From NCBI RefSeq assembly GCF_001438845.1, contig NZ_JQCL01000013.1:1-37119 (forward strand): 37,119 bases of DNA. Direction: 5' to 3'. This DNA comes from Lactiplantibacillus xiangfangensis (GTDB lineage Bacteria; Bacillota; Bacilli; Lactobacillales; Lactobacillaceae). The notes under the pieces are model-generated. The model was not told the origin of the DNA. It searched no databases and worked only from the letters and a program-made list of their open reading frames with translations. The position numbers and the translations under genes are program-made. Within the stretch, counting starts at the first letter, position 1. Each line of letters starts with the position of its first letter. Of the stretch, positions 3,741-30,230 are shown in pieces.

Positions 3741-3809
3741 GAAACGTGGGCAAAAAGGCAGTTTGTTCCACGTTAATGCTCACAACCTAGCCGCCTTTTT
3801 GCCCACTCT
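3741..3809. repeat. intergenic hairpin repeat, copy A (inner stem deleted)
   Basis: The outer arms GTGGGCAAAAAGGC (3747-3760) and GCCTTTTTGCCCAC pair perfectly over 14 bases. The element runs from GAAACGTGGG to CCCACTCT, the boundaries shared with the copies at 17931, 24999 and 30105. It lacks the inner variable stem and the CGCTTAAC side of the internal loop: GTTCC runs straight into ACGTTAATGCTCAC. It lies between convergent adaA and the LysM gene. Confidence 0.8.
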
Positions 3810-3839
3810 AAAAAAAGAGACACCAATAAATGGTATCTC
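3810..3839 (-). terminator. intrinsic terminator of the LysM gene
   Basis: On the minus strand GAGATACCA - TTTAT - TGGTGTCTC forms a 9-bp stem with one U-G pair, followed by seven Ts. It begins about 20 bases after the stop codon. Confidence 0.85.
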
Positions 3840-3858
3840 AGTGATTTAACGTATTTAT

Positions 3859-4917
3859 TTAGTACCAACCATTATTGAGCCAGAACGTTTTAGCGGCGCT
3901 CCATGAACCATAACGGTTTTGAACGTACGTATTGGCAGTAGCTTCCTGATTAGCAGGTGAGTAATCGCCATTTAATAACGATTTGGTTAATTGATACTTA
4001 CCATAGAATTGACCGTTAGTTGCCGTGTAAGAGCCACCGGATTCGTGAGAAGCAATCCATGCTTGGGCTGCTGATTCTGACGTATCGGTCGTTGCCGTAG
4101 TCGTTGTGGTAGCAGCTGGGGCTTTGGCCTGACTAGATGCGGCTGAACTAGTGCTTTGGCTAGGTGCTTGACTGGCAACACTAGTCGTTGAACTAGCTTT
4201 AGCTTGGCTCGTTGCACTCGCTTGGCTAGCAGCACTCACTGGTGCAGTACTGGTTTGGCTGGCGCTTTGTTGAACGGCTTTAGGTGCTTGGCTGGCACTG
4301 CTGCTAGTGGCGCTGGTTGAACTGGCCGACTTAGCTTGGCTAGCGGGTGCTTGACTTGCCGTACTCGTCACTGAAGCAGCGCTAGCTTGGCTGGTGCTAC
4401 TGCTACTGCTCGTAACGCTAGTTGAGCTAGCAGACTTAGCTTGGCTAACTGGCGCCTGACTAACAGTTTGTGTTGCTGAAGCTGCACTAACTTGGCTAGT
4501 ACGACTGCTACTGGCAACGCTGGTCGTTGATGCGGCACTAGTTTGGCTAGTTGCGTGTTGAGTAGTTGTTGTCATAGTTTTAGTACTGCTACTATTCGAA
4601 GTTACCGGTGTCGTACTAGTGTTAGCACTAGCTGGAGCGGTCGTAACGGCGCCCATTGGAACGACTGCGTGCGCCGTCGTTTTCTTAACCACGTGGCGGG
4701 TGTTAACGTTGAGCTTATCACCGATGTAAATTAAGTTGACGTTTTTTAAATGGTTAATTTTTTGAATCGCTTTAACGGTCGACTTATGTGTCACGGCGAT
4801 TTCGCTAACCGTATCACCGGCTTTGACAGTCACCGTGTCAGCCTTAGCAGCGGTCGTGCCGAGGGCGATCGCGCCAGTTGCGGCTAATGATGATAATAAT
4901 ATGTTTTTAACTTTCAT
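3859..4917 (-). CDS. secreted LysM protein with AST-rich linker and transglycosylase-like C-terminus
   Basis: Probable secreted peptidoglycan-acting enzyme, 352 residues. Order: signal peptide (about 1-27, ending TTAAKA); one LysM domain (about 28-73, VTVKAGDTVSEIA) that should bind glycan; a linker of about 190 residues made almost only of Ala, Ser, Thr and Gln; and a C-terminal domain with Glu292 in SHESGGSY followed by GQFYGKYQL, like the transglycosylase-type domains of lactobacillus cell-wall proteins. Such AST linkers are known O-glycosylation targets in L. plantarum, and two glycosyltransferase genes of the right family are divergent from it. I chose the ATG at 4917, with GGGAG about 10 bases upstream; the GTG at 4929 sits on that site. 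Confidence 0.85.
   Translation of the reverse strand: MKVKNILLSSLAATGAIALGTTAAKADTVTVKAGDTVSEIAVTHKSTVKAIQKINHLKNVNLIYIGDKLNVNTRHVVKKTTAHAVVPMGAVTTAPASANTSTTPVTSNSSSTKTMTTTTQHATSQTSAASTTSVASSSRTSQVSAASATQTVSQAPVSQAKSASSTSVTSSSSSTSQASAASVTSTASQAPASQAKSASSTSATSSSASQAPKAVQQSASQTSTAPVSAASQASATSQAKASSTTSVASQAPSQSTSSAASSQAKAPAATTTTTATTDTSESAAQAWIASHESGGSYTATNGQFYGKYQLTKSLLNGDYSPANQEATANTYVQNRYGSWSAAKTFWLNNGWY
4312..4521 (-). repeat. two 105-bp units in the AST linker
   Basis: A stretch beginning GCTGGTTGAACTGGCCGACT (4312) recurs imperfectly at 4417 (GCTAGTTGAGCTAGCAGACT). The period is 105 bp, or 35 residues, so the frame is kept. Each unit encodes a SQAP-SQAKSASSTS-type block. Such repeats can change linker length between strains by slippage or recombination. 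Confidence 0.65.
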
Positions 4918-5228
4918 ACGGATGTTCACTCCCTGTATTTAAATGTATTCACTTTGAATTTTAACATTTAGGGCGCGATTAGTTAAGCGGTAACAAAAAT
5001 AATTAGGCACTTGGCGCATAAAGTTAGCCAAATCGTGTCAATTAATTAGTGAATAGTATGACTAGTTGAAAGTAGTCGTCAATTTTGACGATGGAAAAGT
5101 AAACGCTCAAATTAGGTCGATAAGACTGATGAAATGGTAAAGTCTGTGAGTAAATTACAAACCGGGTGCTCGAAGTTTGCTATAATCATAGGCGTCAGGC
5201 ACATTGTGGACACGAGGGAGCGAAAAAT
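4918..5228. promoter_or_regulatory. LysM gene / gtfA divergent intergenic region
   Basis: Non-coding and AT-rich. TATAAT at 5181-5186 is preceded by TG one base away (extended -10), placing a gtfA start of transcription near 5193; the -35 is weak. GAGGGAG at 5214-5220 is the gtfA ribosome binding site. CGTCAATTTTGACG near 5077-5090 is a short palindrome of unknown role. No clear promoter for the LysM gene was identified. Confidence 0.5.
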
Positions 5229-6770
5229 ATGTATTATTTTGTTAATACCAGTATTAATCCCAAAAAATCAGGGATCGAACACGCTGAAATGAAGCGGCTA
5301 GCACTTTTTAATCAGCATCAGGTGCCCGCCAAAATGGTGACGCGTTTCTTTTCATTGTCACTACATAAAACATTAAAAGACGCCGGTATTGCGGAAGCTA
5401 ATCAGATTAATTTATTTGATTACTTGCAACAATCATCGGATTTTAAACCAGTTAAGCTAACGATTGAAGATTTACACCTAGCCGATGATTTACGAATTGA
5501 AGCGGATGGACGCAATTACATTGTTTATCAGCGTGACCAATTGCTGATGCGCGTCAATACGTTTGCGAACACGCAAAAACAATTGAACAACGTTCAGTAC
5601 TATGACCAAAAAGGAAAGTTGGTCAAGACGGATTGGTACGATACACGTGGGTTCAAGGGACTAGAACAGTTTTATACGTTTGATGGGCAGGTTGCCAGTG
5701 AACAAGTCTTTGATCCTGACGGCAACGTGGTGTATCAGACCTTTCACATGCCGGACCGGCAAAGCCAAGTCCAGAACTCACTGTACCGGTTTGTGAATTA
5801 TCACGGTCAGGATTGGTCGTTTACGGGTGAAACGGCAATGACGACGTTCTTCCTAGATGAATTAAATCGGAAGACGCCCGGTGCAGTTTTCGTAATTGAC
5901 CGGACTTACGAACTCGCTTATGCGGCCTTAAACATGCAGACCAAAGCCTTTAAAGTGATGCATTTACACAGTAATCACGTGAACGATCCGGCACATCCAC
6001 AGACCGCCACTTTGAACTTTAATTATGCCTATGCGTTGCATAACTTATCTCAGTGGAATGGTGTGATTGCATCAACGGAACAACAAACGCAGGATTTCGT
6101 TGCTCGCTATGGAAGCAAGCCGGCAACGTATACGATTCCGGTTGGGATCGTTCCCGATGCGACCTTAAAAGCTAGACATCCAGCTTGGAAGACGCGGACG
6201 CCCGGAAAGATTATTTTTGTGGCGCGGTTAGCGGAAGAAAAGCAACAGGACCAAGTGATTCGGGCATTTAAACAAGTTCGGCAAACGGTGAAGAATGCGA
6301 CGCTGGATTTCTGGGGTTACGCTAACGGGGATACTGGCAAGAAATTAAAACAATTAGTCACGGATCTGAACCTAACGGATAGCGTGACGTTTAACGACTA
6401 TACGACTGATTTGACGAGTGTGTATAATCACGCTCAACTCGCGATGCTAACGTCGCGGGCGGAAGGTTTTGCTTTGGCACTCTTAGAAGGCCAAGCCCAC
6501 GGTGTGCCACAGGTGGCGTACGACGTTAAATACGGTCCACGAGACATTATTCGAGACGGTCAAGATGGGATCTTAGTCCCCGTTAATAATGAAGCTGCGT
6601 TAGCGACTGCAATGATCGACTTATTGAGTGATTCTGATAAAAGTCAGGCGTTCAGCAAGCAAGCCTATGAAGACGCAAAACGGTATGGAACCGACGCGGT
6701 CTGGCAACGTTGGGAGCCATTGATGGCAGCAGCGAAGGCGTTTTACCAAACGGAAGGTGGGGAAGCATAA
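5229..6770 (+). CDS. gtfA: GtfA-type protein O-glycosyltransferase (TagE5-like)
   Basis: GT4-family, GT-B-fold glycosyltransferase of 513 residues, probably cytoplasmic. Residues 1-200 resemble the N-terminal domain of TagE/GtfA proteins (MYYFVNTSINPKKSGIEHAE). The C-terminal half is the nucleotide-sugar domain: FVARLAEEKQQDQ, then an intact E-x7-E pair Glu412/Glu420 (EGFALALLE), then HGVPQVAYDVKYGPRDII. In L. plantarum the GtfA/GtfB (TagE5/TagE6) pair is reported to be jointly required for O-glycosylation of secreted AST-domain proteins; the family was first annotated as teichoic acid glucosyltransferases, which stays an alternative. The ATG at 5229 follows GAGGGAG. The stop overlaps the gtfB start (TAATG). 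Confidence 0.85.
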   Translation: MYYFVNTSINPKKSGIEHAEMKRLALFNQHQVPAKMVTRFFSLSLHKTLKDAGIAEANQINLFDYLQQSSDFKPVKLTIEDLHLADDLRIEADGRNYIVYQRDQLLMRVNTFANTQKQLNNVQYYDQKGKLVKTDWYDTRGFKGLEQFYTFDGQVASEQVFDPDGNVVYQTFHMPDRQSQVQNSLYRFVNYHGQDWSFTGETAMTTFFLDELNRKTPGAVFVIDRTYELAYAALNMQTKAFKVMHLHSNHVNDPAHPQTATLNFNYAYALHNLSQWNGVIASTEQQTQDFVARYGSKPATYTIPVGIVPDATLKARHPAWKTRTPGKIIFVARLAEEKQQDQVIRAFKQVRQTVKNATLDFWGYANGDTGKKLKQLVTDLNLTDSVTFNDYTTDLTSVYNHAQLAMLTSRAEGFALALLEGQAHGVPQVAYDVKYGPRDIIRDGQDGILVPVNNEAALATAMIDLLSDSDKSQAFSKQAYEDAKRYGTDAVWQRWEPLMAAAKAFYQTEGGEA

Positions 6771-8281
6771 TGTATTTTTTTGTTAATCAATACGTGATGG
6801 CCTTAAATTCCGGTGTGGAACACGCGGAGTTTAAGCGGCTGCAATTATTCAAAGAACACCAAACACCGGCCAAGCTGGTCACCCGCCAGTTTGACGGTTT
6901 GTTACATCAAAATATGCGGCGGTTTAATCTGGAAGACAATCAAATGGCGAACCTCTTTGATTTCTTCCGGGGAACGGCAACGTTTGAACCGCACGTTTTG
7001 AAGATTGAAGATTTAAATTGGCCAGGGGCTTACGAAATTAAGCCTAACCCGAACGTGAGCGAAGTGCATGCCGGTGACCGGTTGATCGCCAAAGTTCACT
7101 TTGTCCCGAGTACGGTTGGCCACGTTTATTACGTGGAAATTTTTGATAAATTCAATAACCGGGTTCAACGAACTGACTATGACGAACGGGGATTCAAAGC
7201 CCGGGATCAGTTTATTGCGCCGAATGGTGAAGCGGTAACGGATATTTTTTATCGGCCGGATGGCAGTCGCTTTGCGGAACAATACTACGCACACGACGGT
7301 AACGGCGCGAACACGGTCTCAATGTGTAAGTTGATTGGGTACCATGGTAAAGACTATTACTTTAATGGTGAATTAGAATTTTACCGGTTCTTCTTAGATG
7401 AATTAAACCGTGCTAATGGCGAAAATAACGTCTTCATCGCGGACCGACCATTAGCGGCACAGTGGCCGGTTATCAACATGCAAAGCAAGGCTCAGAAGTA
7501 TTTATGGTTACCAACACCGCATACGGTCGATCCACAAGACCAGGTCTATGCTAATTTGAATAACGCTTACGTCTATGGAATTCACGAGTACTTAACGTCC
7601 TTAGACGGAGTCATTACCAGCACCCCACAACAACGTGATGATCTTAGTAAGTGGTTAGGTGGTAAGCCCAAACGGCCAATCCGGGCAATCTCAGCCGCGG
7701 TCGTTTCCAAAGACCAGGCCAGTCAGCCACACGTTGCCATGAGTGCACGGCGGTCCCACCAAATTATTTATACTGGACGCGTTGATAATGAACGGCGTGT
7801 CGACCAAATCATTACGGCCTTCTCACAAGTTCGGCGTCGGATTAAGGACGCAACCTTACTGATTCACGGGTACGGTGGTGCCGTCGATGCACTTAAAGAA
7901 CAGGTGAAGAAGCTTGATTTGGACAGTGTTGTGACCTTTGCGGGTTACCAAGTCGATTTGCAACAGGACTACAATCTGTCGGGGGCTTACGTTTACGCTG
8001 GGGAAAGCGATGCGCAGCCCTTATCGCTAATCGAAGCACTTAGTCACGGGGTTCCTGCCGTGGCGTACGATATCAATTACGGTCCAAAAGATATCATCAA
8101 AGACGGCCGCAATGGTTACCTGGTTAAGAATGGTGCGGTCAATCAACTCGTGACCGCCTTAACGAAGGTTCTGGAAAATCCACAACGTCAACAAAAAATG
8201 AGTGACGCGGCGTACCGTAGTAGTACGCAGTATAGTAGCGATGCTGTCTGGAAACAGTGGCAAGTTATTGTAAAAGATTAG
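6770..8281 (+). CDS. gtfB: GtfB-type partner glycosyltransferase (TagE6-like)
   Basis: Paralogue of the upstream gene along its whole length (503 residues; both begin MY-FVN and share SGVEHAEFKRL-LF). The sugar-nucleotide domain is present (IYTGRVDNERRVDQ, HGVPAVAYDINYGPKDII), but the first Glu of the E-x7-E motif is replaced: the aligned pair is Asp414/Glu422 (DAQPLSLIE). In serine-rich-repeat glycoprotein systems GtfB is the non-catalytic partner of GtfA, and this substitution fits that role. The ATG shares one base with the gtfA stop, and the AGGTGGGG at its ribosome binding site lies within the end of gtfA, so the two are translationally coupled and probably form one complex. Confidence 0.85.
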   Translation: MYFFVNQYVMALNSGVEHAEFKRLQLFKEHQTPAKLVTRQFDGLLHQNMRRFNLEDNQMANLFDFFRGTATFEPHVLKIEDLNWPGAYEIKPNPNVSEVHAGDRLIAKVHFVPSTVGHVYYVEIFDKFNNRVQRTDYDERGFKARDQFIAPNGEAVTDIFYRPDGSRFAEQYYAHDGNGANTVSMCKLIGYHGKDYYFNGELEFYRFFLDELNRANGENNVFIADRPLAAQWPVINMQSKAQKYLWLPTPHTVDPQDQVYANLNNAYVYGIHEYLTSLDGVITSTPQQRDDLSKWLGGKPKRPIRAISAAVVSKDQASQPHVAMSARRSHQIIYTGRVDNERRVDQIITAFSQVRRRIKDATLLIHGYGGAVDALKEQVKKLDLDSVVTFAGYQVDLQQDYNLSGAYVYAGESDAQPLSLIEALSHGVPAVAYDINYGPKDIIKDGRNGYLVKNGAVNQLVTALTKVLENPQRQQKMSDAAYRSSTQYSSDAVWKQWQVIVKD

Positions 8282-8293
8282 CTGAAAATAGAA

Positions 8294-8338
8294 AAATCAG
8301 GGCCATCAGAAGCAGTGAGTTTCTGATGGCCCTGATTT
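8294..8338. terminator. bidirectional terminator, gtfB / LysR gene
   Basis: AAATCAGGGCCATCAGAA and TTCTGATGGCCCTGATTT pair perfectly over 18 bases around a 9-base loop. A/T runs flank both sides, so it can end both convergent transcripts. Confidence 0.85.
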
Positions 8339-8346
8339 ATTTTGAG

Positions 8347-9171
8347 CTAATGCCACCGTTGTAAATAGTTGGTAATCACTTGCTGGATTGATTCTAAATC
8401 AGCGTTGGGTTGCGTTTTGGTCAGTAGAAAGAACTGACGTTGATAGTGGTCGCTTAAATGTTCAACGGGGACCCGGTCGGTTAAGACGTGTCGTGAAATA
8501 ATCGATTGACCGACGCCCTGGTCTAGTAAGTCCGCAATCACTTGATTACTGTGAATGACCATGACTTGTTGGGGCTGAACGTTACGGGCCTTTAAAAAGG
8601 CGTTAGTATAGTGGCGGACGCCAGAATTTGGTTCGCGTAATAGCCAGAGGGGACTGTTGAAGTTGCCCGCATGGACGAGTTCGTCGTGTCCAAAGGCGAG
8701 TCGGTTCAAGTTGTCCGTGACCAGCGGCTTTTCAACTAGGCCAAAATCCAGCTTATGTTGGGACATGGCCGTTAAGATTTCCGCTGAATTGGCTAGGTTG
8801 ACCTGAAAATCAAAGTGTTCGCCGTATTCTGCTAGGGTTGCTAATAGTCCCGGGAGAATCAGGTTACCCGTCGTGTGGGATGCACCGATCCGACACGGAA
8901 TTTTGACTAATTGACCGGTCGCGCGGACTGCCGCTTTGGTCGTATCCCAAGTTTCAAGTAATTGCTGAGCTTGACGGTACAGCAGTTTACCACTGGCCGT
9001 TGGTACAATTTCCTGACGACCGTTTCTAGTGAACAAGGTGGTGTTCAGTTCAGTTTCTAACTGCTTGATCTGTGTCGAAACGGTTGGCTGTGAAATAAAG
9101 AGTTGCGCGGCTGCGTGTGAAAAATTACGGGTCTCGTAGACGATTTTGAATGTCTGTAATTGTTTAAACAT
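8347..9171 (-). CDS. LysR-family transcriptional regulator
   Basis: DNA-binding regulator of 274 residues. Residues 1-60 form the winged helix-turn-helix (FSHAAAQLFISQPTVSTQIKQLE), and about 90-274 the periplasmic-binding-protein-like effector domain. It sits back to back with a YeiH-type transporter, the arrangement in which a LysR protein (YeiE/CysL type) controls its neighbour. A perfect inverted repeat between the two starts is the likely site. The ligand is unknown; compounds of sulfur metabolism are possible by analogy. AAGGAA precedes the ATG at 7 bases. Confidence 0.93.
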   Translation of the reverse strand: MFKQLQTFKIVYETRNFSHAAAQLFISQPTVSTQIKQLETELNTTLFTRNGRQEIVPTASGKLLYRQAQQLLETWDTTKAAVRATGQLVKIPCRIGASHTTGNLILPGLLATLAEYGEHFDFQVNLANSAEILTAMSQHKLDFGLVEKPLVTDNLNRLAFGHDELVHAGNFNSPLWLLREPNSGVRHYTNAFLKARNVQPQQVMVIHSNQVIADLLDQGVGQSIISRHVLTDRVPVEHLSDHYQRQFFLLTKTQPNADLESIQQVITNYLQRWH

Positions 9172-9213
9172 GGCGATTTCCTTACTGTTGTGTGTCTATC
9201 GGGCCGGAATACA

Positions 9214-9238
9214 TTACTATTACGATTGTTAATAGTAA
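9214..9238. promoter_or_regulatory. LysR-type operator
   Basis: TTACTATTA (9214-9222) and TAATAGTAA (9230-9238) are perfect 9-base inverted arms with a 7-base spacer. It lies in the 145-base gap between the divergent regulator and yeiH, about 40 bases upstream of a TATACT -10 box (9279-9284) that lacks a good -35. This is the normal position for an activating LysR site. Confidence 0.65.
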
Positions 9239-9316
9239 CTATCATAATAATTTATTTCTCAAATGTAAATCATTTCCGTATACTAAAAGCTATCGAAGAA
9301 AACGGGAGTGGATTGA

Positions 9317-10327
9317 ATGACGGTCAAAAGGATCTTACCAGGCTTAGGGATGAGTGTGGTAATTGCAATTATTAGCCAATTCTTGGCACAATATATTCCA
9401 GCGTTAGGCGCAGCTACGATTGCGATTTTACTAGGAATCGTTGGTGGGAACACATTTTTGAAACAGCCACAACTTAGTCGGGGGACTAAGTTTGCGGAAA
9501 GTAAGTTATTGGAGTACTCCGTAATGTTGCTTGGGGCAACGATGACGGTTCAGACCATCGGCAAAATTGGTGGCTGGGGCGTGGGGTTCATTTTGATTCA
9601 AATGACCATTACGATCGTGGGCGCACTTTGGCTCGGTAACCGCTTAGGATTTAGTCAAAACATGCGGTTATTAATGGCTGGTGGGAACGCCGTTTGTGGC
9701 TCATCCGCGATTGCGTCGATTGCACCAGTGATTGAGGCTGATGAAGATGATAAGGGAACGGTCATTACCTTAGTTAACTTAATGGGGACGGTCTTAATGC
9801 TGACCCTGCCACTATTAGGAGGTGCCATCTTTGGCGGAAGCGTCATTTTAAAAGGGGCCTTGATTGGTGGAACGTTGCAATCAGTAGGTCAGGTGGTGGC
9901 TGCCGCTAGTATGGTCAACCAAACGACGGTTCAATTTGCCACTATTTTTAAAATTATGCGGATCATGATGTTAGTTGTCGTCGTCTTAATTTTTGGACGG
10001 CTTCACAAGCGGACGATTGAAAATGAATTAGCCGAAGACGCTGAAGTTAGCGGTAATGGTAGTGGGCACTGGTTACCGTGGTACGTAGCGGGATTTCTGA
10101 TCCTATGTGCCCTCAACAGTTTAGTTACTTTGCCGGCCATCGTGGGTGCGACCGCGCACACCATTAGTAGCTGGTTTGAAATTACCGCCTTAGCAGCGAT
10201 TGGTTTGCGATTAAATCTAGCTAACTTTTTGAAGGCCGGCAAGCGCCTCGCATTATACGGATTAGGGGTCGGGACGATTCAAGTTGTGAGTGCATTAGCC
10301 TTAATCACGTTGTTGTTACGGCATTAA
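9317..10327 (+). CDS. yeiH: YeiH family putative sulfate/anion exporter
   Basis: Integral membrane protein of 336 residues with about ten hydrophobic segments, of the YeiH/UPF0324 family, often named putative sulfate exporter although the substrate is poorly established. Family landmarks are [18 protein letters not shown] and the conserved small-residue stretch [19 protein letters not shown] in the middle. GGGAGTGG precedes the ATG. It is probably activated by the divergent LysR protein. Confidence 0.88.
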
Positions 10328-10340
10328 GCGGTATCAAATA

Positions 10341-10384
10341 AAAAGAATTGGCTTGAGAAAATTTCTCAAACCAATTCTTTTTTA
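10341..10384. terminator. bidirectional terminator, yeiH / DUF4811 gene
   Basis: AAGAATTGG-TTGAGAAA pairs with TTTCTCAA-CCAATTCTT, with a run of Ts on the plus strand and As on the other side, between two convergent genes. Confidence 0.85.
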
Positions 10385-10391
10385 CTGTGAT

Positions 10392-12379: not shown

Positions 12380-12422
12380 AGTACCGTCCTTTCATAAAAT
12401 AATTTATAACACACAATTAATA

Positions 12423-13298: not shown

Positions 13299-13346
13299 TG
13301 ATAATACTTGTTGGTGGTTGTGGTGTTACATTGAAAGGACCTAATT

Positions 13347-14559: not shown

Positions 14560-14677
14560 GGAGGTTGAAAGGTAAGTTTAAGGATTGACTGCCGGCGAAG
14601 CGCCGAAAACTACTAATCTTCTAACGATAAGTAGTGCCGTGGCGATGATTGAACTAGTTTTTGCACCTTCAACCTTT
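14560..14677 (+). ncRNA. candidate folded RNA between convergent genes
   Basis: This stretch has nested complementarity: a closing stem AGGTTGAA-A-GGT (14562-14573) with ACCTTCAACCT (14665-14675); a second helix AGTTTAA (14575-14581) with TTGAACT (14649-14655); a hairpin CGGCG-AAG-CGCCG (14593-14605); and a hairpin ACTACT/AGTAGT (14609-14635). CGCC (14601-14604) could instead pair with GGCG (14641-14644), giving an alternative fold. No open frame of note. Strand is assumed from the single G-U pair. The family is not recognised. Confidence 0.35.
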
Positions 14678-14692
14678 AGATAAAATTCAAAA

Positions 14693-14719
14693 AGCCAATC
14701 AGAAAATTTCTGGTTGGCT
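14693..14719 (+). terminator. terminator-like hairpin of repeat copy B
   Basis: AGCCAATCAGAAA pairs with TTTCTGGTTGGCT, with one U-G pair on the plus strand. The T-run after it is poor (GTTCTTATTATT). Nearly the same hairpin is at 30062-30090 ahead of the other long repeat copy, so it is part of the repeat unit and may also end the upstream MFS transcript. Confidence 0.55.
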
Positions 14720-14737
14720 GTTCTTATTATTATGGTC

Positions 14738-14771
14738 GAAACGTGGGTCAGAAGGCAGTTTGGCCCACTCT
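14738..14771. repeat. intergenic hairpin repeat, copy B (truncated)
   Basis: GAAACGTGGGTCAGAAGGCAG joins directly to TTTGGCCCACTCT; the centre of the element is missing but both outer ends are kept (GTGGGTC/GGCCCAC). On the minus strand the AGAGTGGG end overlaps the TAG stop (14770-14772) of the auxin-efflux-type carrier. Confidence 0.7.
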
Positions 14772-15696
14772 AATGTAAGTTCATTAGGGCAAAAACCAGT
14801 GGAATTGAAATAACACTTAAAATCGTTGAAATACTCATCAACGCAACGGCAGGGCCAGGTTGGCCGTGGACCTTCAGCGTGAATAAGACCACGATTCCGG
14901 CTACCGGACAAGCGGCCATCAAAACGGTCGTGAATAAGGGGATGCCGGTAATGCCCATAAATTGGAGTACCACGATGGCTAGGTAAGGGAATAAGAAGTT
15001 GCGCAGCAATAAGACGCCCCATAACCGTTTATCCAAGGTCTCGCGGTTTAGTTTGACGTCGGCCAGACTGTTCCCGATAACGATCATCGACAGTGGCGTG
15101 TTAATCGAACTGACGTAGGTCACAGCACTGTTTGCAATTGATGGTAAGCGGAAGGAGGTCACAAATAAAATCAAACCAACAATGATTGCAATGATGTTGG
15201 GATTTAAAACGATCTGTTTGAGATTCTCTTTGCGGCTACCCTGGTTACCCGTAAATAAGGTAATCCCGTGGGTCCAACTAAAAATGTTGAAAGCAGCCAG
15301 TGAAGCAACCGCAAAAAAGACCCCGGTGGAACCGAATAGTGAGCTGGTTAATGGGATGCCCATAAAACCAGCGTTGGAATAGACGGACCCGTAGCGCATG
15401 ATTCGGCGCAAGTTGGGGTCGGCGACGCGTTTAAAAACAAGCTGGGTGACTAAAATCATAATGGCATAGATAATGATGATTCCTAAAATAACGCGTCCTA
15501 GCATTTGCAGCCGGTCAGCTGAAAATGTTTGTTCAAACGCCTTGATAATTAGGCAGGGCGAGACCACGTACAACAAGATGTTGGTGAGATCAGTTGAAGT
15601 CTGGGCGTGCATGAACCCCAGTTTGTTGATCAACAGACCGACCAGCATCAAGAGAAACATTAAAATGATTTGACTCGTTAATTGTGTTAGGTTCAT
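14770..15696 (-). CDS. auxin efflux carrier (AEC) family transporter
   Basis: Membrane transporter of 308 residues with about ten helices in two blocks around a short central loop. AEC features are LLINKLGFM at the start, SVYSNAGFMGIPL (a conserved NxGFxG-type stretch) and MIVIGNSLA in the second half. In lactic bacteria members often carry malate or other organic acids, but the substrate here is open. A minus-strand promoter lies upstream. Its stop codon is formed at the edge of a hairpin repeat, and no other terminator is seen. Confidence 0.9.
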   Translation of the reverse strand: MNLTQLTSQIILMFLLMLVGLLINKLGFMHAQTSTDLTNILLYVVSPCLIIKAFEQTFSADRLQMLGRVILGIIIIYAIMILVTQLVFKRVADPNLRRIMRYGSVYSNAGFMGIPLTSSLFGSTGVFFAVASLAAFNIFSWTHGITLFTGNQGSRKENLKQIVLNPNIIAIIVGLILFVTSFRLPSIANSAVTYVSSINTPLSMIVIGNSLADVKLNRETLDKRLWGVLLLRNFLFPYLAIVVLQFMGITGIPLFTTVLMAACPVAGIVVLFTLKVHGQPGPAVALMSISTILSVISIPLVFALMNLH

Positions 15697-17856: not shown

Positions 17857-17917
17857 GGCATCTAAAATGGCCCTACAGAATTTAGTGAAAACTTCTGCAG
17901 GACCTTTTTTTGATGCC
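17857..17917 (+). terminator. terminator of the antiporter gene
   Basis: CCTACAGAA/TTCTGCAGG (17872-17901, one mismatch) is followed by a T-run to 17911. An outer helix GGCATC/GATGCC closes the whole structure. Confidence 0.8.
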
Positions 17918-17930
17918 TATTTTTCTGGTT

Positions 17931-18051
17931 GAAACGTGCGTCAAAAGGCAGCTTGCTCCGCTTAACGTGGATTCAGAAATTATCCCTGGGTTTGGGATAA
18001 TTTCTGAATCCACGTTAATGCTCACAACCTACTCGCCTTTTGCCCCACTCT
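17931..18051. repeat. intergenic hairpin repeat, copy C (full)
   Basis: Begins GAAACGTGCGTCAAAAGGCAG and ends CGCCTTTTGCCCCACTCT. The inner perfect inverted repeat pairs AACGTGGATTCAGAAATTATCCC's 23 bases around TGGGTTT. The internal-loop words CCGCTTAAC and GTTAATGCTCAC are present. The minus-strand AGAGTGGG end lies inside the 3' end of the RibD-like gene and encodes its last residues and TAG stop (18029-18031). Confidence 0.85.
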
Positions 18052-18577
18052 GTTTTCGATAATGCACTTCAGCTAATTGTCCATACTGATTCGTGGCCAC
18101 GAGTTCGAAGCGTTGTTGATGATCGATGGTTGTAAATAACGGAATCCCGCTGCCCAAGATGACGGGCGCAATTTGAATGAACATCTCGTCAACGAGATTC
18201 GCTGCCAGTAATGGCATTAAAATACCGGCCCCACCGACAATCCAAATGTTTTGGCCCGCTTTTTGACGTAGTTCTTGAACCAATTCAGTGACGTCAGCGT
18301 TAGTGAATTGCGTGTGGTCGTCACCGGGATGCGGGGCGGAGGTCATCACGATACTTTGTGTGTCAGGATTAAACGGATTGATCAATTGATCAGTCGTTTG
18401 TTCCATGGTGTACTCGTAAGTATGGCGCCCCATAATGGCAGTGTCCACTTGTTGCATGAACGTCTTGGTTGGGGCTTCGTCCGCGCCACTAGTCTGGAAA
18501 AGCCAGTCTAGCCGATTATCCTTAGTGGCGAGATAACCGTCGATTGAGATTGCCCCGTAAAATTGTACTTTACGCAT
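18029..18577 (-). CDS. dihydrofolate reductase-like / RibD C-terminal domain protein
   Basis: Small NADPH-dependent reductase-type protein, 182 residues, of the RibD_C/DHFR-fold family. Markers are the N-terminal GAISIDGYLATKDNRLDWL, IMGRHTYEY in the first half, and the nucleotide-binding IWIVGGAGILMPLL. Such stand-alone proteins are common in Gram-positive bacteria and seldom have a proven substrate; a true folate or riboflavin role is not implied. I chose the ATG at 18577 after AGGTG; an upstream in-frame start adds 12 poorly conserved residues. The last residues (SGAKGE) are encoded by the hairpin repeat, so the original C-terminus was probably replaced. Confidence 0.88.
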   Translation of the reverse strand: MRKVQFYGAISIDGYLATKDNRLDWLFQTSGADEAPTKTFMQQVDTAIMGRHTYEYTMEQTTDQLINPFNPDTQSIVMTSAPHPGDDHTQFTNADVTELVQELRQKAGQNIWIVGGAGILMPLLAANLVDEMFIQIAPVILGSGIPLFTTIDHQQRFELVATNQYGQLAEVHYRKQSGAKGE

Positions 18578-21705: not shown

Positions 21706-21716
21706 ATTTATAAAAT

Positions 21717-21778
21717 AGTGGTTAAACACCGGACAATCCGTCCGGTGCATCCACTGGCTGGTTCGTAAACTTCCCAGC
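21717..21778 (+). promoter_or_regulatory. structured leader of the nucleoside hydrolase-ECF operon
   Basis: CACCGGAC/GTCCGGTG (21727-21734, 21740-21747) is enclosed by AGTGG/CCACT (21717-21721, 21751-21755) and followed by GCTGG/CCAGC (21757-21761, 21774-21778). GGAGG lies downstream before the ATG at 21818. It may be a riboswitch or protein-binding leader; no T-run follows. I do not match it to a known class. Confidence 0.4.
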
Positions 21779-21817
21779 ATAAAAAACCAAGAACTTCACT
21801 TAATCGGAGGTAAGAAA

Positions 21818-23346: not shown

Positions 23347-23358
23347 CTGAATAATTTC

Positions 23359-23402
23359 AAATGGCATTTCAGACGTGGTAAACTTTCTGAAATGCCATTT
23401 TT
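23359..23402 (+). terminator. terminator of the nucleoside operon
   Basis: AAATGGCATTTCAG pairs perfectly with CTGAAATGCCATTT, followed by a short T-run. Confidence 0.85.
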
Positions 23403-23453
23403 GAGTTGCAATAAGGCGTCACGACTAAAAATTAATTAATTGGAATCAACCGC

Positions 23454-23484
23454 TTGACCCTGACGTGGCGTCACCCCTTATGCT
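23454..23484 (+). promoter_or_regulatory. MerR-type promoter with 19-bp spacer
   Basis: TTGACC (23454-23459) and TATGCT (23479-23484) are 19 bases apart, the overlong spacing that MerR-family activators correct. The spacer holds the palindrome TGACG-TGG-CGTCA (23461-23473). It lies just ahead of a MerR-family gene, so autoregulation is very likely. GGCGTCAC also occurs at 23415-23422. Confidence 0.75.
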
Positions 23485-23510
23485 AAGTAATGTTGAAAGG
23501 AAGGGTGACC

Positions 23511-24275: not shown

Positions 24276-24281
24276 TCAGTT

Positions 24282-24330
24282 AAAATAGTGCCCTGATAGA
24301 ATGATCACATTCTGTTCAGGGCACTATTTT
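24282..24330 (+). terminator. terminator of the MerR gene
   Basis: AAAATAGTGCCCTGA pairs perfectly with TCAGGGCACTATTTT; the loop holds a second small helix AGAATG/CATTCT. Confidence 0.85.
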
Positions 24331-24401
24331 ATTTGGCCAAACGTTGGCGAGTGGTATATTTAACTTAGTTAATCAGATTACTGAATTAAGGGGTTGGCAA
24401 G

Positions 24402-24998
24402 ATGAATAAAGGACGGGTCGAAGCGTTTACTGATGCTGTGGTGGCCATTGTATTGACGATTATGGTATTGGAGTTTGACGTGCCAAATGAGCCGACATTT
24501 GCGGCCTTGGCGGAGAATGGGAGCTATTTGATTGCGTACTTGATTAGTTTCCTGTTTATTGGCGTGGCGTGGTATAACCACCATTATATGCTGACGCTAA
24601 CGAAACATATCACGAAACGGATTTATTGGCTGAACAACTTTTGGATTCTCACGATGTCGTTACTACCAGTGTCGACGGCTTGGGCTGGAAAATTTATTGA
24701 TCAGCCGCAACCAGAATTATTCTATTTCATTATCTTTATTTTATGGACAATTGCCTACGCGGTACTCTCACGTGCAATTGCACAGGCTAATGTGGCCGAT
24801 CATCCTAAAATTACGGCGAAGATTCAAGCGATGCCGGCTTATCGCATTCATGCCAACGTTTTTTTCTGGGTGATCGCGGCAATCGTGGCTCTTATGATTA
24901 TCTTTGTCTGGCCGCCGTTATCAATGGTGTTTACGGTGATTGAACTAATTTTGATGGCGCTTCGCACGCCCGCTGACAGTGATAAGATTGCTGAGTAA
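24402..24998 (+). CDS. TMEM175-family (DUF1211) potassium channel-like protein
   Basis: Membrane protein of 198 residues with six hydrophobic segments. It opens RVEAFTDAVVAIVLTIMVLE with Arg5, Phe9 and Asp11, the R-x3-F-S/T-D signature of the TMEM175 family, whose bacterial members form tetrameric K+-permeable channels. Selectivity here is inferred. Its stop (TAA at 24996-24998) directly abuts the AGAGTGGG end of a hairpin repeat, which ends in a T-run and probably ends the transcript. Confidence 0.88.
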   Translation: MNKGRVEAFTDAVVAIVLTIMVLEFDVPNEPTFAALAENGSYLIAYLISFLFIGVAWYNHHYMLTLTKHITKRIYWLNNFWILTMSLLPVSTAWAGKFIDQPQPELFYFIIFILWTIAYAVLSRAIAQANVADHPKITAKIQAMPAYRIHANVFFWVIAAIVALMIIFVWPPLSMVFTVIELILMALRTPADSDKIAE

Positions 24999-25107
24999 AG
25001 AGTGGGCCAAAGGCGGTTAGTTTGTGAGCATTAACATAAAATCAGCGACTATTCCTAGGATTGGAATGGTCGCTGATTTTGGGTTAAGCGGAACAAACGG
25101 TTTTTTT
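24999..25107. repeat. intergenic hairpin repeat, copy E (reverse orientation)
   Basis: Reads AGAGTGGGCCAAAGGCGG...GAGCATTAAC, inner arm AAAATCAGCGACTATTCC, loop TAGGATT, GGAATGGTCGCTGATTTT, then GTTAAGCGGAACAAACGG and seven Ts (25101-25107). The inner stem has one U-G pair on the plus strand. The outermost 3' arm of the family is lost and replaced by the T-run, so this copy looks like a working terminator for the channel gene. Confidence 0.85.
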
Positions 25108-25194
25108 GAGTTTTGTAATGCCAAATACTGATAGTTGAAATGGGTGACAAAAGACACGCTTGTTGTTTTTCTATGATGAGAATCAAAAGTCCCG

Positions 25195-25872
25195 TTAATC
25201 GGTTCGGGTCATCTTACCGTCTTCAATGCGATAAACGACGTCACAATTACTAATTAGACGCTGATCATGGGTGACCATGACGATGGCTTTATTGTGGTGA
25301 TGCGCTTCGTCAGCTAATCGTTTAACGACGTCGATTGAACGGGGGGTATCCAGACTAGCGGTTGGTTCATCGGCAAGAATCACACTCGGGTTATTGTAAA
25401 GCGCCCGTGCAATGGCCACCCGCTGGCGTTCACCACCGGACAGTTCGTTAGGATAAGCATCCTTAACGTCGCTTAAGGCCAGTTCATCGAGCAACTTTAA
25501 GGTTGCGGATTTTTGAAAGGTGCGGCGGGCCATTTTGTCGACCAGTTTGAACTGCTCAGTGACGGTTAAAAAGGGAATCAAGTTGGAACTTTGAAGAATG
25601 AAGCCAATTTCATTAAAACGGTAGGCCAAGCGTTGCTTCTCACTCTGTTGTGTCAAGGCTTGCCCGTTGAGAAGAACTTTGCCGCTAGTCGGGGTTTGTA
25701 GCCCGGCCGCAATGGTTAAAAAGGTACTCTTTCCAGAACCGGAAGGCCCAATGATAGCTACAAATTCCCCGGCGTTGACCCGAAAGTTGGCGTCAGCAAG
25801 TGCGGTGACCGCAGTATGACCATGGCCAAATTCTTTATTGATATGTTGTAATTCTAAAACGCTAGTTGACAT
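25195..25872 (-). CDS. ABC transporter ATP-binding protein, MacB/LolD type
   Basis: ATPase subunit of 225 residues paired with the FtsX-like permease upstream. Walker A GPSGSGKST, Q-loop ILQSSNLIPF, signature LSGGERQRVAIARAL, Walker B VILADEPTASLD and switch VTHD are all intact. AGGAGG precedes the ATG. The gap to the permease is 12 bases, so they form one operon. Members of this type export lipids, peptides or drugs, or act as mechanotransmission complexes. Confidence 0.93.
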   Translation of the reverse strand: MSTSVLELQHINKEFGHGHTAVTALADANFRVNAGEFVAIIGPSGSGKSTFLTIAAGLQTPTSGKVLLNGQALTQQSEKQRLAYRFNEIGFILQSSNLIPFLTVTEQFKLVDKMARRTFQKSATLKLLDELALSDVKDAYPNELSGGERQRVAIARALYNNPSVILADEPTASLDTPRSIDVVKRLADEAHHHNKAIVMVTHDQRLISNCDVVYRIEDGKMTRTD

Positions 25873-25884
25873 ATTGAGTCCTCC

Positions 25885-26952
25885 TTATCCGATGGCAACA
25901 ACGGGATCGATTTTGGCAACGGTTCGCCATGAAAGCAAAGCGCCAACGACCGCTGCACCTAATAACGCCAAGCTATAGATGCCAAAGGCTTGCCAGTTGA
26001 TTACGAACGGCAATCCGGCCGGCATGATTTGCGCTAAGCCAACGGTGATGGCGAGGCCTAAGCCGATGCCAATCAGCGCCATGACGACACTTTGACTGAG
26101 TAGTGCGGCGATGATGTGGCTGGTTCCAATGCCTTGGACTTTCAAAACGCCAAATAAAGCCTGTTTCTGAAGGGTCAAGACGAACATGAAAATCCCGATG
26201 ACTGCTAAGGCAATCACGAATAGGAAGTAAATCATGGTATTTAACGTGAGTTGTTCAGCACTGTACCCCGGAAGGTTCTCAATAAAAGTGGCGATACTCA
26301 ATCGTTGTAAGTTGCCGTGGTGCGCTGTCTTGAACTGACTCTTTTTTGTCACGAATGCGTTGATTGGTTGTTGCTTACCAGTCGTAATGGGACTGTCTTT
26401 TAAGCGGTTCAGCGTTGACGTATCCGTGTAGACGGTCGGCGCAATACTGTAAGTACTGCTGGCGTAAGTCCCCACGATTTTAACGGTTCGTTTCGTTGTC
26501 CCGATGCGGACCTTTTGACCAACGTGGTAGCCTTTGTCCTTGAGCGTTGCCGAAATTAATAACTGGTTTTTACCATTGATTTTATGGCCGCTAATAACAG
26601 TGGGCATCAAGAAGCTGTTACGGCTAGTCCCGAATGCGCTAGCCGTTGTTTTTAAGTGGTTGGTGCTTGTCCGCAACGTTCCGGACAAGTTTGACAGGGG
26701 CGCAACCGTGTTACCGTCAATATGCTTTTTATCGGCCAACGTTAATTGTGAGGCTGATAACGTTTGGTTGGCATTCTTATTCAGGTAGACGGTGGTTGCG
26801 TGCCACTGATCGACGGCTTGCCGGTTCCCGTTAGAAAGACCATTCGCTAATCCCGCTAACATGAAAACGACGAGGGCAATCAGTAACAGAACCCCGCTCA
26901 GTAGACTGTAGCGGAGCTTTTCGTGCCACATTTCCTTTAATCCTAGATACAT
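25885..26952 (-). CDS. ABC transporter permease, FtsX/MacB-type
   Basis: Membrane subunit of 355 residues: one N-terminal helix (LLSGVLLLIALVVFMLAGLA), an extracytoplasmic domain of about 190 residues, then three helices, ending TVAKIDPVVAIG as usual for FtsX-domain permeases. It is the first gene of the operon with its ATPase. AAGG precedes the ATG. A palindrome just upstream (26977-26992) may be an operator. The substrate is not identifiable. Confidence 0.92.
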   Translation of the reverse strand: MYLGLKEMWHEKLRYSLLSGVLLLIALVVFMLAGLANGLSNGNRQAVDQWHATTVYLNKNANQTLSASQLTLADKKHIDGNTVAPLSNLSGTLRTSTNHLKTTASAFGTSRNSFLMPTVISGHKINGKNQLLISATLKDKGYHVGQKVRIGTTKRTVKIVGTYASSTYSIAPTVYTDTSTLNRLKDSPITTGKQQPINAFVTKKSQFKTAHHGNLQRLSIATFIENLPGYSAEQLTLNTMIYFLFVIALAVIGIFMFVLTLQKQALFGVLKVQGIGTSHIIAALLSQSVVMALIGIGLGLAITVGLAQIMPAGLPFVINWQAFGIYSLALLGAAVVGALLSWRTVAKIDPVVAIG

Positions 26953-26976
26953 GCTACGAACCTTCTTCCAATTTGG

Positions 26977-26992
26977 TTTATCAAGTGATAAA
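26977..26992. promoter_or_regulatory. palindrome upstream of the MacB-type operon
   Basis: TTTATCA-AG-TGATAAA is a perfect 7-base inverted repeat 25 bases ahead of the permease start. Half-site words recur as TTGATAA (27048-27054) and TTATCA (27076-27081) in the same divergent gap, so a dimeric repressor site is plausible. Confidence 0.45.
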
Positions 26993-27130
26993 TGAATATC
27001 AGAAGCATAACACGCTTAATTCTAAAATTCAAATTTTTATTTATTAATTGATAATTTGAGCTTAATTATTACGAACTTATCAGGAAGGCTGGTATGATGA
27101 AGTTATTGAATAGAGAGGCAGGTTTTATTG

Positions 27131-27646
27131 ATGACTAAAAAGTGTTTTAACCACCGTGCGGCCATGATTGCGGGCGTTACTGGCGGAATTATCTCGGGAT
27201 TAGTTAAGTTGGGCTGGGAGAATATCTTGCCACCGCGGACACCTGAACGGGATCAAACCAATCCACCACAGCAACTCCTTCAGCAAGTGGGGGTTCCTGC
27301 AAGCGTGACCCATGCGACTTATTCGTATTCAGGGCATGACTTACCGGTAGTTAGTTACATGATGCACTTTGGTTTTTCGACAACCTTTGCCGTTGCATAT
27401 AGTTTGTGGGCCCGGAAGCATCCGAAGGCCAAAGCGGGGAGCAGTGCTTTATTTGGGCTCGGCATTTTCAGTGCGTTTCATCAGGTGATTTTACCGGCAC
27501 TGGGGACCATTCCCGCAGCTAAGGATCAACCCGCAACGGAGCACGTTTCGGAAGCCCTTGGCCACGTTTTATGGATGTGGACCGCTGACTGGGTCAGTGC
27601 GACGGTTTATAACCGCTTAACAGCTGATAAGAAAAAAGCTAAATAA
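27131..27646 (+). CDS. YagU family inner-membrane protein (DUF1440)
   Basis: Membrane protein of 171 residues with about three to four helices. AGVTGGIISGLVKLGWENILPPRTPER at the start and SEALGHVLWMWTADWVSATVY near the end are typical of the YagU family, linked in E. coli to acid resistance; the mechanism is unknown. The ATG at 27131 is taken as the start; a TTG at 27128 sits better behind GAGAGG (27113-27118), and the choice is not settled. Confidence 0.82.
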   Translation: MTKKCFNHRAAMIAGVTGGIISGLVKLGWENILPPRTPERDQTNPPQQLLQQVGVPASVTHATYSYSGHDLPVVSYMMHFGFSTTFAVAYSLWARKHPKAKAGSSALFGLGIFSAFHQVILPALGTIPAAKDQPATEHVSEALGHVLWMWTADWVSATVYNRLTADKKKAK

Positions 27647-27657
27647 TTAAGATCAGG

Positions 27658-27697
27658 ACGTTTCCACCGGCAGTTATTGGGTGGAAACGTTTTTTTA
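27658..27697 (+). terminator. terminator of the YagU gene
   Basis: ACGTTTCCACC pairs perfectly with GGTGGAAACGT and is followed by seven Ts. Confidence 0.9.
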
Positions 27698-27736
27698 CAT
27701 TAGTGAATTCTAATTAGGCTCTCATTTAATTAATGA

Positions 27737-27766
27737 TTGTGCTAAAATGTTAATATTGTTGCACAA
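27737..27766 (+). promoter_or_regulatory. promoter and inverted repeat of the symporter gene
   Basis: TAAAAT with upstream TGTGC looks like an extended -10. TTGTGC (27737-27742) and GCACAA (27761-27766) are inverted arms around it, a possible operator. Confidence 0.35.
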
Positions 27767-27809
27767 AATTAGTGAAAATATTCAGTAATTAGAACGGGGC
27801 GAATGGGTT

Positions 27810-29126
27810 TTGAAAACAGAAACACAGATGAAACGGTATCACCGATTTCGGTTGAGTTTAGGATGGCAAATCCTGATTGGGCTAGTTTTGGGGATCGTGT
27901 TAGGTGTCATCTTTTACGGTAACCAAACGGCCATTACGGCGATGCAAAATATTGGGACGATGTTTATTAGTCTGATTCAAATGATCGTATTACCAATCGT
28001 GGTGGCGTGCCTGATTACCGGGATCGCCAACATGGGTGATTTAAAGAAATTGGGTCGAATCGGTGGTAAAACCATCATCTACTTTGAAGTGATGACGACG
28101 ATTGCGATTGCTTTAGGACTATTGATGGGTAATATTTTCCACCCCGGAGATTACATCAATATTCATCAGTTACACGCTTCTAATATTAGTCAGTACGTCC
28201 AAACCGCCAAGACGGTTTCCCATAACGGGGTCTGGTCAACTATCATGGGCATTATCCCAACGAACGTCTTCAAGTCGTTGTCTGCGGGCGATATGATTCC
28301 GGTCATCTTCTTTGCCGTGTTCTTCGGCCTGGGGACCGCCGCGATTGGTGAGCAGGGTAAGATTATTTTGAACTTCATGAATGCCGTTGCCGAAGCAATG
28401 TTTAAAGTGACAAATTGGGTCATGCATACGGCACCGATTGGCGTCTGTGCACTGATTGGGGTTACGGTCGCACAAATGGGGTTAAAAGCCTTGGCACCGT
28501 TGGGCTACTTCATTATTCTAGCGTATATCACGATGGCCATTTTTATTGTCGTTGTTATGGGGATTGCTGCGCGTTTGTTTGGTTTGAACATCTGGCACTT
28601 GTTACGAGTGATTCGTGATGAAATGGTGTTGGGCTTTTCAACGGCGAGTTCGGAAGCGGCCCTACCACGGATTATCGATAAAATGGGCAAGTTCGGTGTC
28701 AGTGAAGGCATCGTGTCCTTCGTGATTCCGACTGGTTACACGTTTAACCTGGATGGTTCAGCTATTTACCAATCATTGGCCGCGTTATTCTTGGCGCAAG
28801 CGTACGGGATCCACTTGTCATTGAGTCAACAAATTACGTTATTGATCGTCTTAATGATTACGTCAAAGGGGATTGCGGGCGTACCCGGTGCCTCGTTTGT
28901 GGTCTTGTTAGCCACTATCTCGACCATTGGGGTTCCCGTACAAGGGCTAGCCTTTATTGCCGGAATTGATCGGTTGGTTGATATGGGCCGGACCGTGGTC
29001 AACGTGGTTGGTAATTCACTAGCCGCGGTAATTATTGGTAAATCAGAACATGAATTTGATGAGCCACAAAGTGAGCGCTACTTGGCAGAGGTCCGTTCGG
29101 GACACGCAACTAGTGCGGCTAAATAG
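27810..29126 (+). CDS. gltP: dicarboxylate/amino acid:cation symporter (GltP/DAACS type)
   Basis: Secondary importer of glutamate/aspartate or C4-dicarboxylates driven by H+ or Na+, 438 residues with eight helices and two re-entrant loops. Family marks are the serine-rich loop FSTASSEAALPRI, the helix-7 TGYTFNLDGSAIY (NMDGT-like) and the second re-entrant loop TSKGIAGVPGASFVVL, with DRLVDMGRTVVNVVGNS in helix 8. The TTG at 27810 is placed about 10 bases after GGGG; the ATG at 27828 has no ribosome binding site. Confidence 0.9.
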   Translation: MKTETQMKRYHRFRLSLGWQILIGLVLGIVLGVIFYGNQTAITAMQNIGTMFISLIQMIVLPIVVACLITGIANMGDLKKLGRIGGKTIIYFEVMTTIAIALGLLMGNIFHPGDYINIHQLHASNISQYVQTAKTVSHNGVWSTIMGIIPTNVFKSLSAGDMIPVIFFAVFFGLGTAAIGEQGKIILNFMNAVAEAMFKVTNWVMHTAPIGVCALIGVTVAQMGLKALAPLGYFIILAYITMAIFIVVVMGIAARLFGLNIWHLLRVIRDEMVLGFSTASSEAALPRIIDKMGKFGVSEGIVSFVIPTGYTFNLDGSAIYQSLAALFLAQAYGIHLSLSQQITLLIVLMITSKGIAGVPGASFVVLLATISTIGVPVQGLAFIAGIDRLVDMGRTVVNVVGNSLAAVIIGKSEHEFDEPQSERYLAEVRSGHATSAAK

Positions 29127-29130
29127 AAAG

Positions 29131-29165
29131 AATGAGTCTGGGCCTAATAGCTCGGACTCATTTTT
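29131..29165 (+). terminator. terminator of the symporter gene
   Basis: AATGAGTC pairs with GACTCATT, extended by G-C pairs in the apical part and followed by five Ts. Confidence 0.8.
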
Positions 29166-29278
29166 GTCACAAGCTAAAGAAGCTTAAATTTAAGGATTAG
29201 TGTCGGTTGTATCCTAAGCCAATAAATTAGCTACTTGTAAGTTATTCCGGTTACCACTGATTGATTACGGGATTACGG

Positions 29279-29309
29279 TTGACTCTCAAGCTACTTGAGA
29301 CTTTATAAT
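29279..29309 (+). promoter_or_regulatory. second MerR-type promoter (19-bp spacer) at the DUF554 gene
   Basis: TTGACT (29279-29284) and TATAAT (29304-29309) are near consensus but 19 bases apart. The spacer is occupied by TCTCAAG-CTA-CTTGAGA (29286-29302), a perfect 7-base inverted repeat. This is the standard layout for a MerR-family activator. The rest of 29166-29337 shows nothing else clear. Confidence 0.6.
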
Positions 29310-29337
29310 GGTGTATAAATTCTGATGGGGTGAAGTG

Positions 29338-30015
29338 ATGATAGGAACAATTTTTAACGTTGGGATGATTTTAGTTGGTTGCACGATTGGAAGCTTATTT
29401 AAGCACGGAATCAAACCAGCGTACCACGAGATTTTAATGCAAGCACTGGGACTGGCCGCCTGTATGATTGGGATTAATGCGGTGGTGCAGCGCATGCCGC
29501 AAAGTAAGTATCCGGTCTTGTTCATTGTTAGTTTGGCGCTGGGCGGGCTCATTGGGCAGGCGTTAGATTTACAAGGCCGTTTTGACCGCCTTGTGGGCCG
29601 GTTTTCAAGCGGCAACTTATCGGAAGGCTTGGCGACAGCGGTACTACTGTATTGTATCGGGTCCTTATCAATTTTAGGACCCATTGAAGCCGCACTTAAA
29701 CATGATTATACGTTCTTATTTACGAACGGGATGTTGGACGGAATTACGTCGATCGTACTGGCGTCAACGTTTGGGTTTGGAATTGCAATCGCTGCGGGGG
29801 TTCTATTTATCTGGCAAGGCTCACTGTACGTGTTGGCGCTCGTATTGCAGGGCGCGTTAAGTACGGCTATTTTAAATGAGATTACCATTGTTGGGGGTAT
29901 CTTAATTCTGGCATCGGGGTTAGGGCTACTGAAGATTAAGCAGATCAATACGTTGAATTTATTGCCAGCGCTGTTAATTCCACCATTGGTCATTAGTGTG
30001 TGGCAACTGTTCTAG
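29338..30015 (+). CDS. DUF554 family membrane protein (YdfK/YqgA-like)
   Basis: Membrane protein of 225 residues with about six to seven helices. It opens MIGTIFNVGMILVGCTIGSLFK, has LALGGLIGQALDL and LYCIGSLSILGPIEAAL, and FTNGMLDGITSIVLASTFG in the middle; all are typical of DUF554, whose function is unknown. The ATG at 29338 fits GGGGTGA at 5 bases better than the GTG one codon earlier. Its promoter has MerR-type geometry, so it may be induced by a metal, oxidant or drug; this is inference. Confidence 0.85.
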   Translation: MIGTIFNVGMILVGCTIGSLFKHGIKPAYHEILMQALGLAACMIGINAVVQRMPQSKYPVLFIVSLALGGLIGQALDLQGRFDRLVGRFSSGNLSEGLATAVLLYCIGSLSILGPIEAALKHDYTFLFTNGMLDGITSIVLASTFGFGIAIAAGVLFIWQGSLYVLALVLQGALSTAILNEITIVGGILILASGLGLLKIKQINTLNLLPALLIPPLVISVWQLF

Positions 30016-30040
30016 AACTTTTATGATTAAACCAAAAAAG

Positions 30041-30230
30041 GGGCTGGGACAAAACTCAAAAAGCCAATCAGAAAAAAATTCTGGTTGGCTTTTCCTACTG
30101 TTATGGTCGAAACGTGGTCCAAAAGGCAATTTGTTCCGCTTAACCCGAAAGCAGTGACTATTCCAAAACCCAGGAATAATCACTGCTTTCACGTTAATGC
30201 TCGCAAATTAACCGCATTTTGGTCCACTCT
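30041..30230. repeat. intergenic repeat, copy D (longest, about 190 bp)
   Basis: Three joined parts: GGGCTGGGAC; a terminator-like hairpin AGCCAATCAGAA/TTCTGGTTGGCT plus TTTT (30062-30093); and the core hairpin from GAAACGTGGTCC (30109) to GGTCCACTCT (30230). Inner arms are GAAAGCAGTGACTATTCC and GGAATAATCACTGCTTTC around AAAACCCA; the single C-A mismatch is a U-G pair in the minus-strand RNA. Internal-loop words CCGCTTAAC and GTTAATGCTCGC match the other copies. It lies between convergent DUF554 and YueI genes. Confidence 0.85.

Follow-up and report, generated by a model that had tools for sequence, protein, structure and literature searches.

EFAR, an element of Enterococcus faecalis, is reportedly about 170 bp long and built of two independent stem-loops. 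At its empty sites the resident stem-loops are said to be mostly deleted upon insertion, with parts of the stems kept. EFAR is counted among the MITEs in PMC3733652. For Streptococcus pneumoniae, PMC10969869 describes SPRITE as terminator-like, and the SPRITE, BOX, and RUP elements as inserting into each other. The repeat considered here is likewise a small intergenic one, a likeness to the pneumococcal elements in description, and like EFAR it has two stem-loops per unit, a terminator stem-loop and a core hairpin. It is probably a small non-autonomous mobile hairpin that targets terminators and couples a bidirectional terminator to the core. The stretch in which it was found, called the window below, comprises 37,119 nt of Lactiplantibacillus xiangfangensis DNA (contig NZ_JQCL01000013.1), and is contig C49 of a 2.99-Mb draft genome in 103 contigs (G000).

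Copies in the window and their fold

Read from left to right, the unit opens with a terminator stem-loop, which a short spacer separates from a core hairpin of ~120 nt running from GAAACGTG to CACTCT. The arms of the terminator stem-loop are variable yet complementary, typically GGGACAAAACTCAAAAAGCC ... GGCTTTTTCC. The core is a single long hairpin. Its outer helix is followed by a short middle helix, then by an inner helix that carries a bulged T, and last by a long inner arm; the outer frame is AAACGTGNNNNAAAAGNCAG ... CTAANCGNCTTTTNNNNCACTCT. One helix, GCTTAAC/GTTAA-GC, may resemble the core sites of integron attC.

A sequence-only reading had listed five related elements in the window, and all five are found where it had placed them and can be aligned with each other. 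E5 has both modules, the left end with the terminator stem-loop (30041–30099, plus strand), missing from the sister species G012, which has a plain, different terminator there, and a full core from GAAACGTG to CACTCT (30109–30230, plus; covariance match 30106–30240, 153.4 bits). E3 is also a full core (17931–18051, plus; match 17928–18061, 132.9 bits), and the terminator stem-loop to its left (17866–17912, plus) is common to the window and G012. The core of E4 is reversed (24999–25107, minus; match 24989–25117, 104.3 bits), with a degenerate outer arm on the GAAACGTG side, and its AGAGTG begins immediately after the stop codon of the gene at 24402–24998; at this junction (C49:24989) G012 has a copy in unchanged orientation, with the inner hairpin missing. 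The two remaining copies are shorter. E1 is a core without the inner hairpin (3741–3809, plus; match 3738–3819, 55.9 bits), which is present at the same junction in G012. E2 is a remnant with the outer stem only (14738–14771, plus; match 14735–14781, 25.2 bits), preceded by a terminator stem-loop and spacer (14686–14734, plus), the module also found in E5; the G012 copy at this junction is full. Slippage within a long palindrome most likely deleted the missing parts of E1 and E2. Folding z-scores relative to shuffled sequences are -5.4 for E1, -2.8 for E2 (the weakest), -9.3 for E3, -8.3 for E4, and -9.0 for E5. Five of the seven convergent junctions in the window hold an element, as had been noted, and the two exceptions do have simple stem-loop terminators, at about 8282–8346 and 10328–10391.

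Similar junctions in congeners (L081, L086, L087) are occupied by another structured repeat, which is longer and measures several hundred bases. It is found at the E3 junction of G012, where it sits between core remnants, and at the E5-like junction of G018 and G004, and a piece of it lies to the left of E2 (window about 14560–14680).

Within G000, the 125-bp E5 core gave 44 BLAST matches, a number that excludes chance. Four of these read one palindrome a second time, from its opposite strand, which leaves 40 distinct places. With a covariance model of 30 copies there were 103 matches at E up to 0.05, 39 of them opposite-strand duplicates, and 58 places were classified, omitting six matches of 25.3–30.2 bits and retaining E2 (25.2 bits) as a member of the window. 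The bipartite hairpins are a real family, as had been proposed. At two of these places, C44:57262 and C53:119184 (L074, L068), the terminator arms (GAGTTTGGGAYAAARCCCAAACTC) and the inner arm are distinct, which marks a second subfamily. Tandem copies, repeating about every 125–130 bp, occur in three genomes (three copies at L057, two each at L058 and L059), the terminator module being missing between copies.

Among the 39 full copies, 34 have a stem of at least 8 bp in the 80 nt that precede the core, and these 80 nt fold with a mean of -22.2 kcal/mol, compared to -10.3 for base-shuffled versions. The fold of the core itself was assessed in a MAFFT alignment of 25 copies, of which 24 represent a genome each and one a Pediococcus plasmid. 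Of the cells, 93.6% are paired, a share favored by the choice of the structure from one sequence of that alignment, and 32 of 42 pairs have changed on both sides. The covariation score is 0.530, compared to 0.146 in shuffles and at most 0.111 with a slid partner. The fold is thus kept despite changes of letters, with strong covariation of the pairing.

No Rfam family matched the elements, either in the whole window at gathering level or, with E values up to 1, in four loci; the earlier reading had likewise not recognized a named repeat. The search of the window found a T-box leader (34545–34743, plus) and a PreQ1 riboswitch (21752–21796, plus) elsewhere, each over its gathering score; that of the four loci returned six matches, none near a gathering score. 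A search of the open literature, also by letter strings and with subscription papers mostly outside its scope, found no account of a Lactobacillaceae repeat of this kind.

Placement at gene 3′ ends and strand asymmetry

The elements had been thought confined to convergent junctions, which does not hold for the genome as a whole. With genes called by a custom script based on ORFs and codon usage and trained on G000, the 58 places in that genome are 26 convergent, 29 tandem, none divergent, and three undetermined; the script skipped a gene at 3130–3684, so that E1 was scored as tandem, and the corrected counts are 27 convergent and 28 tandem. In the tandem places as first scored, the CACTCT side is at the stop codon in 23 and opposite in six. 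At 52 places a gene runs into the CACTCT edge, and at 46 of them no more than 25 nt separate its stop codon from that edge. The rule of placement is therefore the 3′ end of a gene rather than convergence, and the earlier reading is borne out as far as position at mRNA 3′ ends goes.

A similar pattern is found in 755 kb of G012, where 55 places are 26 convergent, 21 tandem with CACTCT at the stop codon, five tandem in the opposite orientation, three undetermined, and none divergent, and where 43 of 48 stop codons fall within -23 to +31 nt of the CACTCT edge. Gaps of at least 60 bp in the same 755 kb are 240 tandem, 102 divergent, and 94 convergent overall. The lack of enrichment at convergent junctions that would have spoken against the earlier reading is not seen, the convergent to tandem ratio being 26:26 for copies and 94:240 for gaps (Fisher p 0.002, for stretches that were picked around copies). 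The enrichment could simply reflect the two gene 3′ ends that each convergent gap contains. The two genomes together have 44 tandem copies with CACTCT at the stop codon and 11 in the opposite orientation. No such bias is seen in 37 distinct places from other genomes, which are 14 convergent, 18 tandem (nine in each orientation), two divergent, and three undetermined.

The minus strand of the element is the one transcribed from the gene whose stop codon adjoins CACTCT, and mismatched pairs were counted by strand. Pairs read as A.C on the plus strand, equivalent to G.U on the minus strand, outnumber G.T pairs 40:10 in the 25 cross-genome copies and 141:60 in 88 copies from two genomes; without four poorly paired positions, the ratios are 29:8 (binomial p 0.0008) and 83:47 (p 0.002), ancestry being ignored in both tests. 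Counted as distinct events of position and type, they are 20:7 across genomes (p 0.02) and 29:26 in the pair of genomes, which leaves support for the asymmetry only across genera. A mutational bias in transcribed DNA would give the same sign.

These observations bear on the possibility that the repeat is an RNA element beneficial to the host, a stabilizer or regulator at mRNA 3′ ends that is selected on the RNA of the abutting gene. Its position next to stop codons, the orientation bias in two genomes, the covariation of the core, and the excess of minus-strand over plus-strand G.U across genera, both by cells (29 vs. 8) and by kinds (20 vs. 7), would all agree with such a role. However, the wobble excess among the 88 copies (83 vs. 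47 cells) vanishes when distinct kinds are counted (29 vs. 26), the orientation bias does not extend to other genomes, and the preceding genes have no common theme among those tested. Many junctions also differ between sister species, and matches range from 2 to 116 per genome within one genus. A host RNA function is on balance very unlikely to be the explanation.

Turnover between sister species

A counterpart in G012 was identified for 36 of the 58 junctions. Full copies in the same orientation are present in both species at 12 of these, and at two more both copies are full and inverted relative to each other. At 13 the inner hairpin is found in one species only, having been lost five times in G012 and eight times in G000, in some cases with further loss of the core; at one it is missing from both. 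G012 has no element at six junctions and retains only the terminator module at one; the remaining junction is that of E3, filled in G012 by the longer repeat. The presence of copies in both species at 28 of the 36 would also fit an old, rarely moving element.

At the E5 site, which is empty in G012, that species has CCAAAAAAG, a plain stem-loop, and CTTTTTGGG, where the window has CCAAAAAAG, the element, and TTTTTAGG. At C98:94327 and C44:57262 a plain terminator of G012 is replaced by the element in the same manner. The right boundary is ill-defined at C9:66062 and C100:249004. At C53:119184 the insertion is flanked by an 11-bp direct repeat with one mismatch; the native terminator is kept, so that replacement of the terminator is not the sole outcome. 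No target-site duplication was evident at the other empty sites read.

Two of these junctions were followed in congeners. Both flanks of C100:249004 were found in nine of 19 loci, eight of which lack the element, several with a plain stem-loop instead; the ninth, from L. garii (G006), has an inverted, diverged copy. At C98:94327 the gap is just 43–82 nt in 10 of 19 congeners; the copies of G007 are inverted, a remnant is left in G015, and others have a different sequence or long gaps. Outgroups at two junctions only thus point to probable insertion rather than loss.

A different origin for such changes would be the swapping of terminator hairpins as DNA replicates, by gene conversion or by template switching, through microhomology of their A- and T-tracts and with no dedicated transposition. 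The swaps of stem-loops retain just these tracts, copies are inverted in place at two junctions, and the inner hairpin is often lost. In the 25-copy alignment, 212 cells have changed on both sides, compared to 10 with a G.T intermediate, which also speaks for swapping, as does the lack of Y1 and RVT_1 proteins in three of the most match-rich genomes (see below). The frame, however, is conserved far past the A- and T-tracts in other families of the Lactobacillales, which suggests that sequence is recognized too, and one site has a duplication rather than a swap. Exchange by microhomology appears unlikely, less so than a host RNA function.

At the level of sequence, the genomes compared display many copies, placement at 3′ ends, presence and absence at matched junctions, copies inverted in place or lacking the inner hairpin, and strong covariation of the core. 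Under the mobile hairpin interpretation preferred here, the element would insert right after stop codons, at intrinsic terminators. Several native terminator stem-loops would be lost down to their outer A- and T-tracts, so that the element's own terminator substitutes for them. The mobilizing machinery would presumably recognize a folded single strand, and insertion may be tolerated because the element brings a terminator with it. Against this interpretation, no helper enzyme (see below) and no general target-site duplication were found, and no autonomous copy is among those compared.

Distribution and comparison with known systems

Matches occur in every one of the 21 genomes of the genus; their number, which may include both strands of the palindrome, ranges from 2 to 116 per genome. 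Three of them (G016, G013, and G017, 3.3–3.7 Mb) have 2 to 6, compared to 94 to 116 in four other congeners. Under stricter filters, with 11 and 8 candidates scored per genome, respectively, matches were found in 139 of 301 genomes of the family, representing 20 of 40 genera, and in 64 of 395 genomes of the order. Beyond the family, in other Lactobacillales, the inner body is different and the outer frame is retained. With up to five mismatches the frame is found in 14 of 30 loci, compared to 0 of 30 shuffled and 1 of 61 control pieces, and with up to six in 22 of 30, compared to 2 of 30 and 3 of 61; at looser settings chance matches become common.

Some relatives are carried on plasmids. One from genome G425 matches 107 Enterococcus and three Lactococcus plasmid records, a second matches one Aerococcus tenax plasmid, and a third, used as query, had zero plasmid matches. 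Relative to the frame, the plasmid cores have 0 and 1 mismatches in Aerococcus and 3 and 3 in E. faecium and Lactococcus. With E5 as the query, the only plasmid matches are three Pediococcus damnosus records. Carriage by phages was rejected; E5 matched no phage record, and of 65 viral stretches with the 5′ half of the frame, none had the 3′ half as well (up to two mismatches).

Candidate helper enzymes were sought among the 301 genomes of the family. A Y1 transposase (PF01797) is encoded in 92 and a reverse transcriptase (RVT_1, PF00078) in 77; neither was found in G000, G012, or G007, three of the four most match-rich genomes (the fourth is G006), so a resident helper of either kind was rejected for these three. 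A group II intron derivative was set aside as well, no PF00078 protein having been found in these three.

In its widest form, the proposal would be of a family spanning the Lactobacillales and recognized through its single-strand fold, with a fixed frame, exchangeable inner hairpins, a terminator of its own that replaces intrinsic ones, a machinery of movement other than a resident Y1 transposase or reverse transcriptase, and an active fold on whichever strand is transcribed from the host gene. Taken together in this way, it is offered tentatively, as a possibility that is rather doubtful. Filled, empty, inverted, and shortened versions of one site are available in sister genomes, making the replacement of hairpins directly open to study. 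The finding also suggests that mobile DNA exchanges terminators, and hence mRNA 3′ ends, throughout a bacterial order; this would bear on terminator evolution and on the annotation of 3′ UTRs in food and gut bacteria.

Among known systems, the element resembles MITEs in being short, non-coding, intergenic, and present in multiple copies. It differs from them in that no cognate transposase was found, in the lack of a regular target-site duplication, and in that structure, not the ends, is its most conserved feature. With REP/RAYT systems it shares extragenic palindromes in many copies, but it is much longer, and no Y1 transposase was found in G000, G012, or G007. EFAR, compared here by description, differs in that the Lactobacillaceae element has an inner body of its own. 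Membership in EFAR is not claimed. In terms of mode of action, the element would appear to work like EFAR: among the empty sites, replacement of a stem-loop is not seen at C53:119184, is blurred on the right at C9:66062 and C100:249004, and is clear at E5, C98:94327, and C44:57262.
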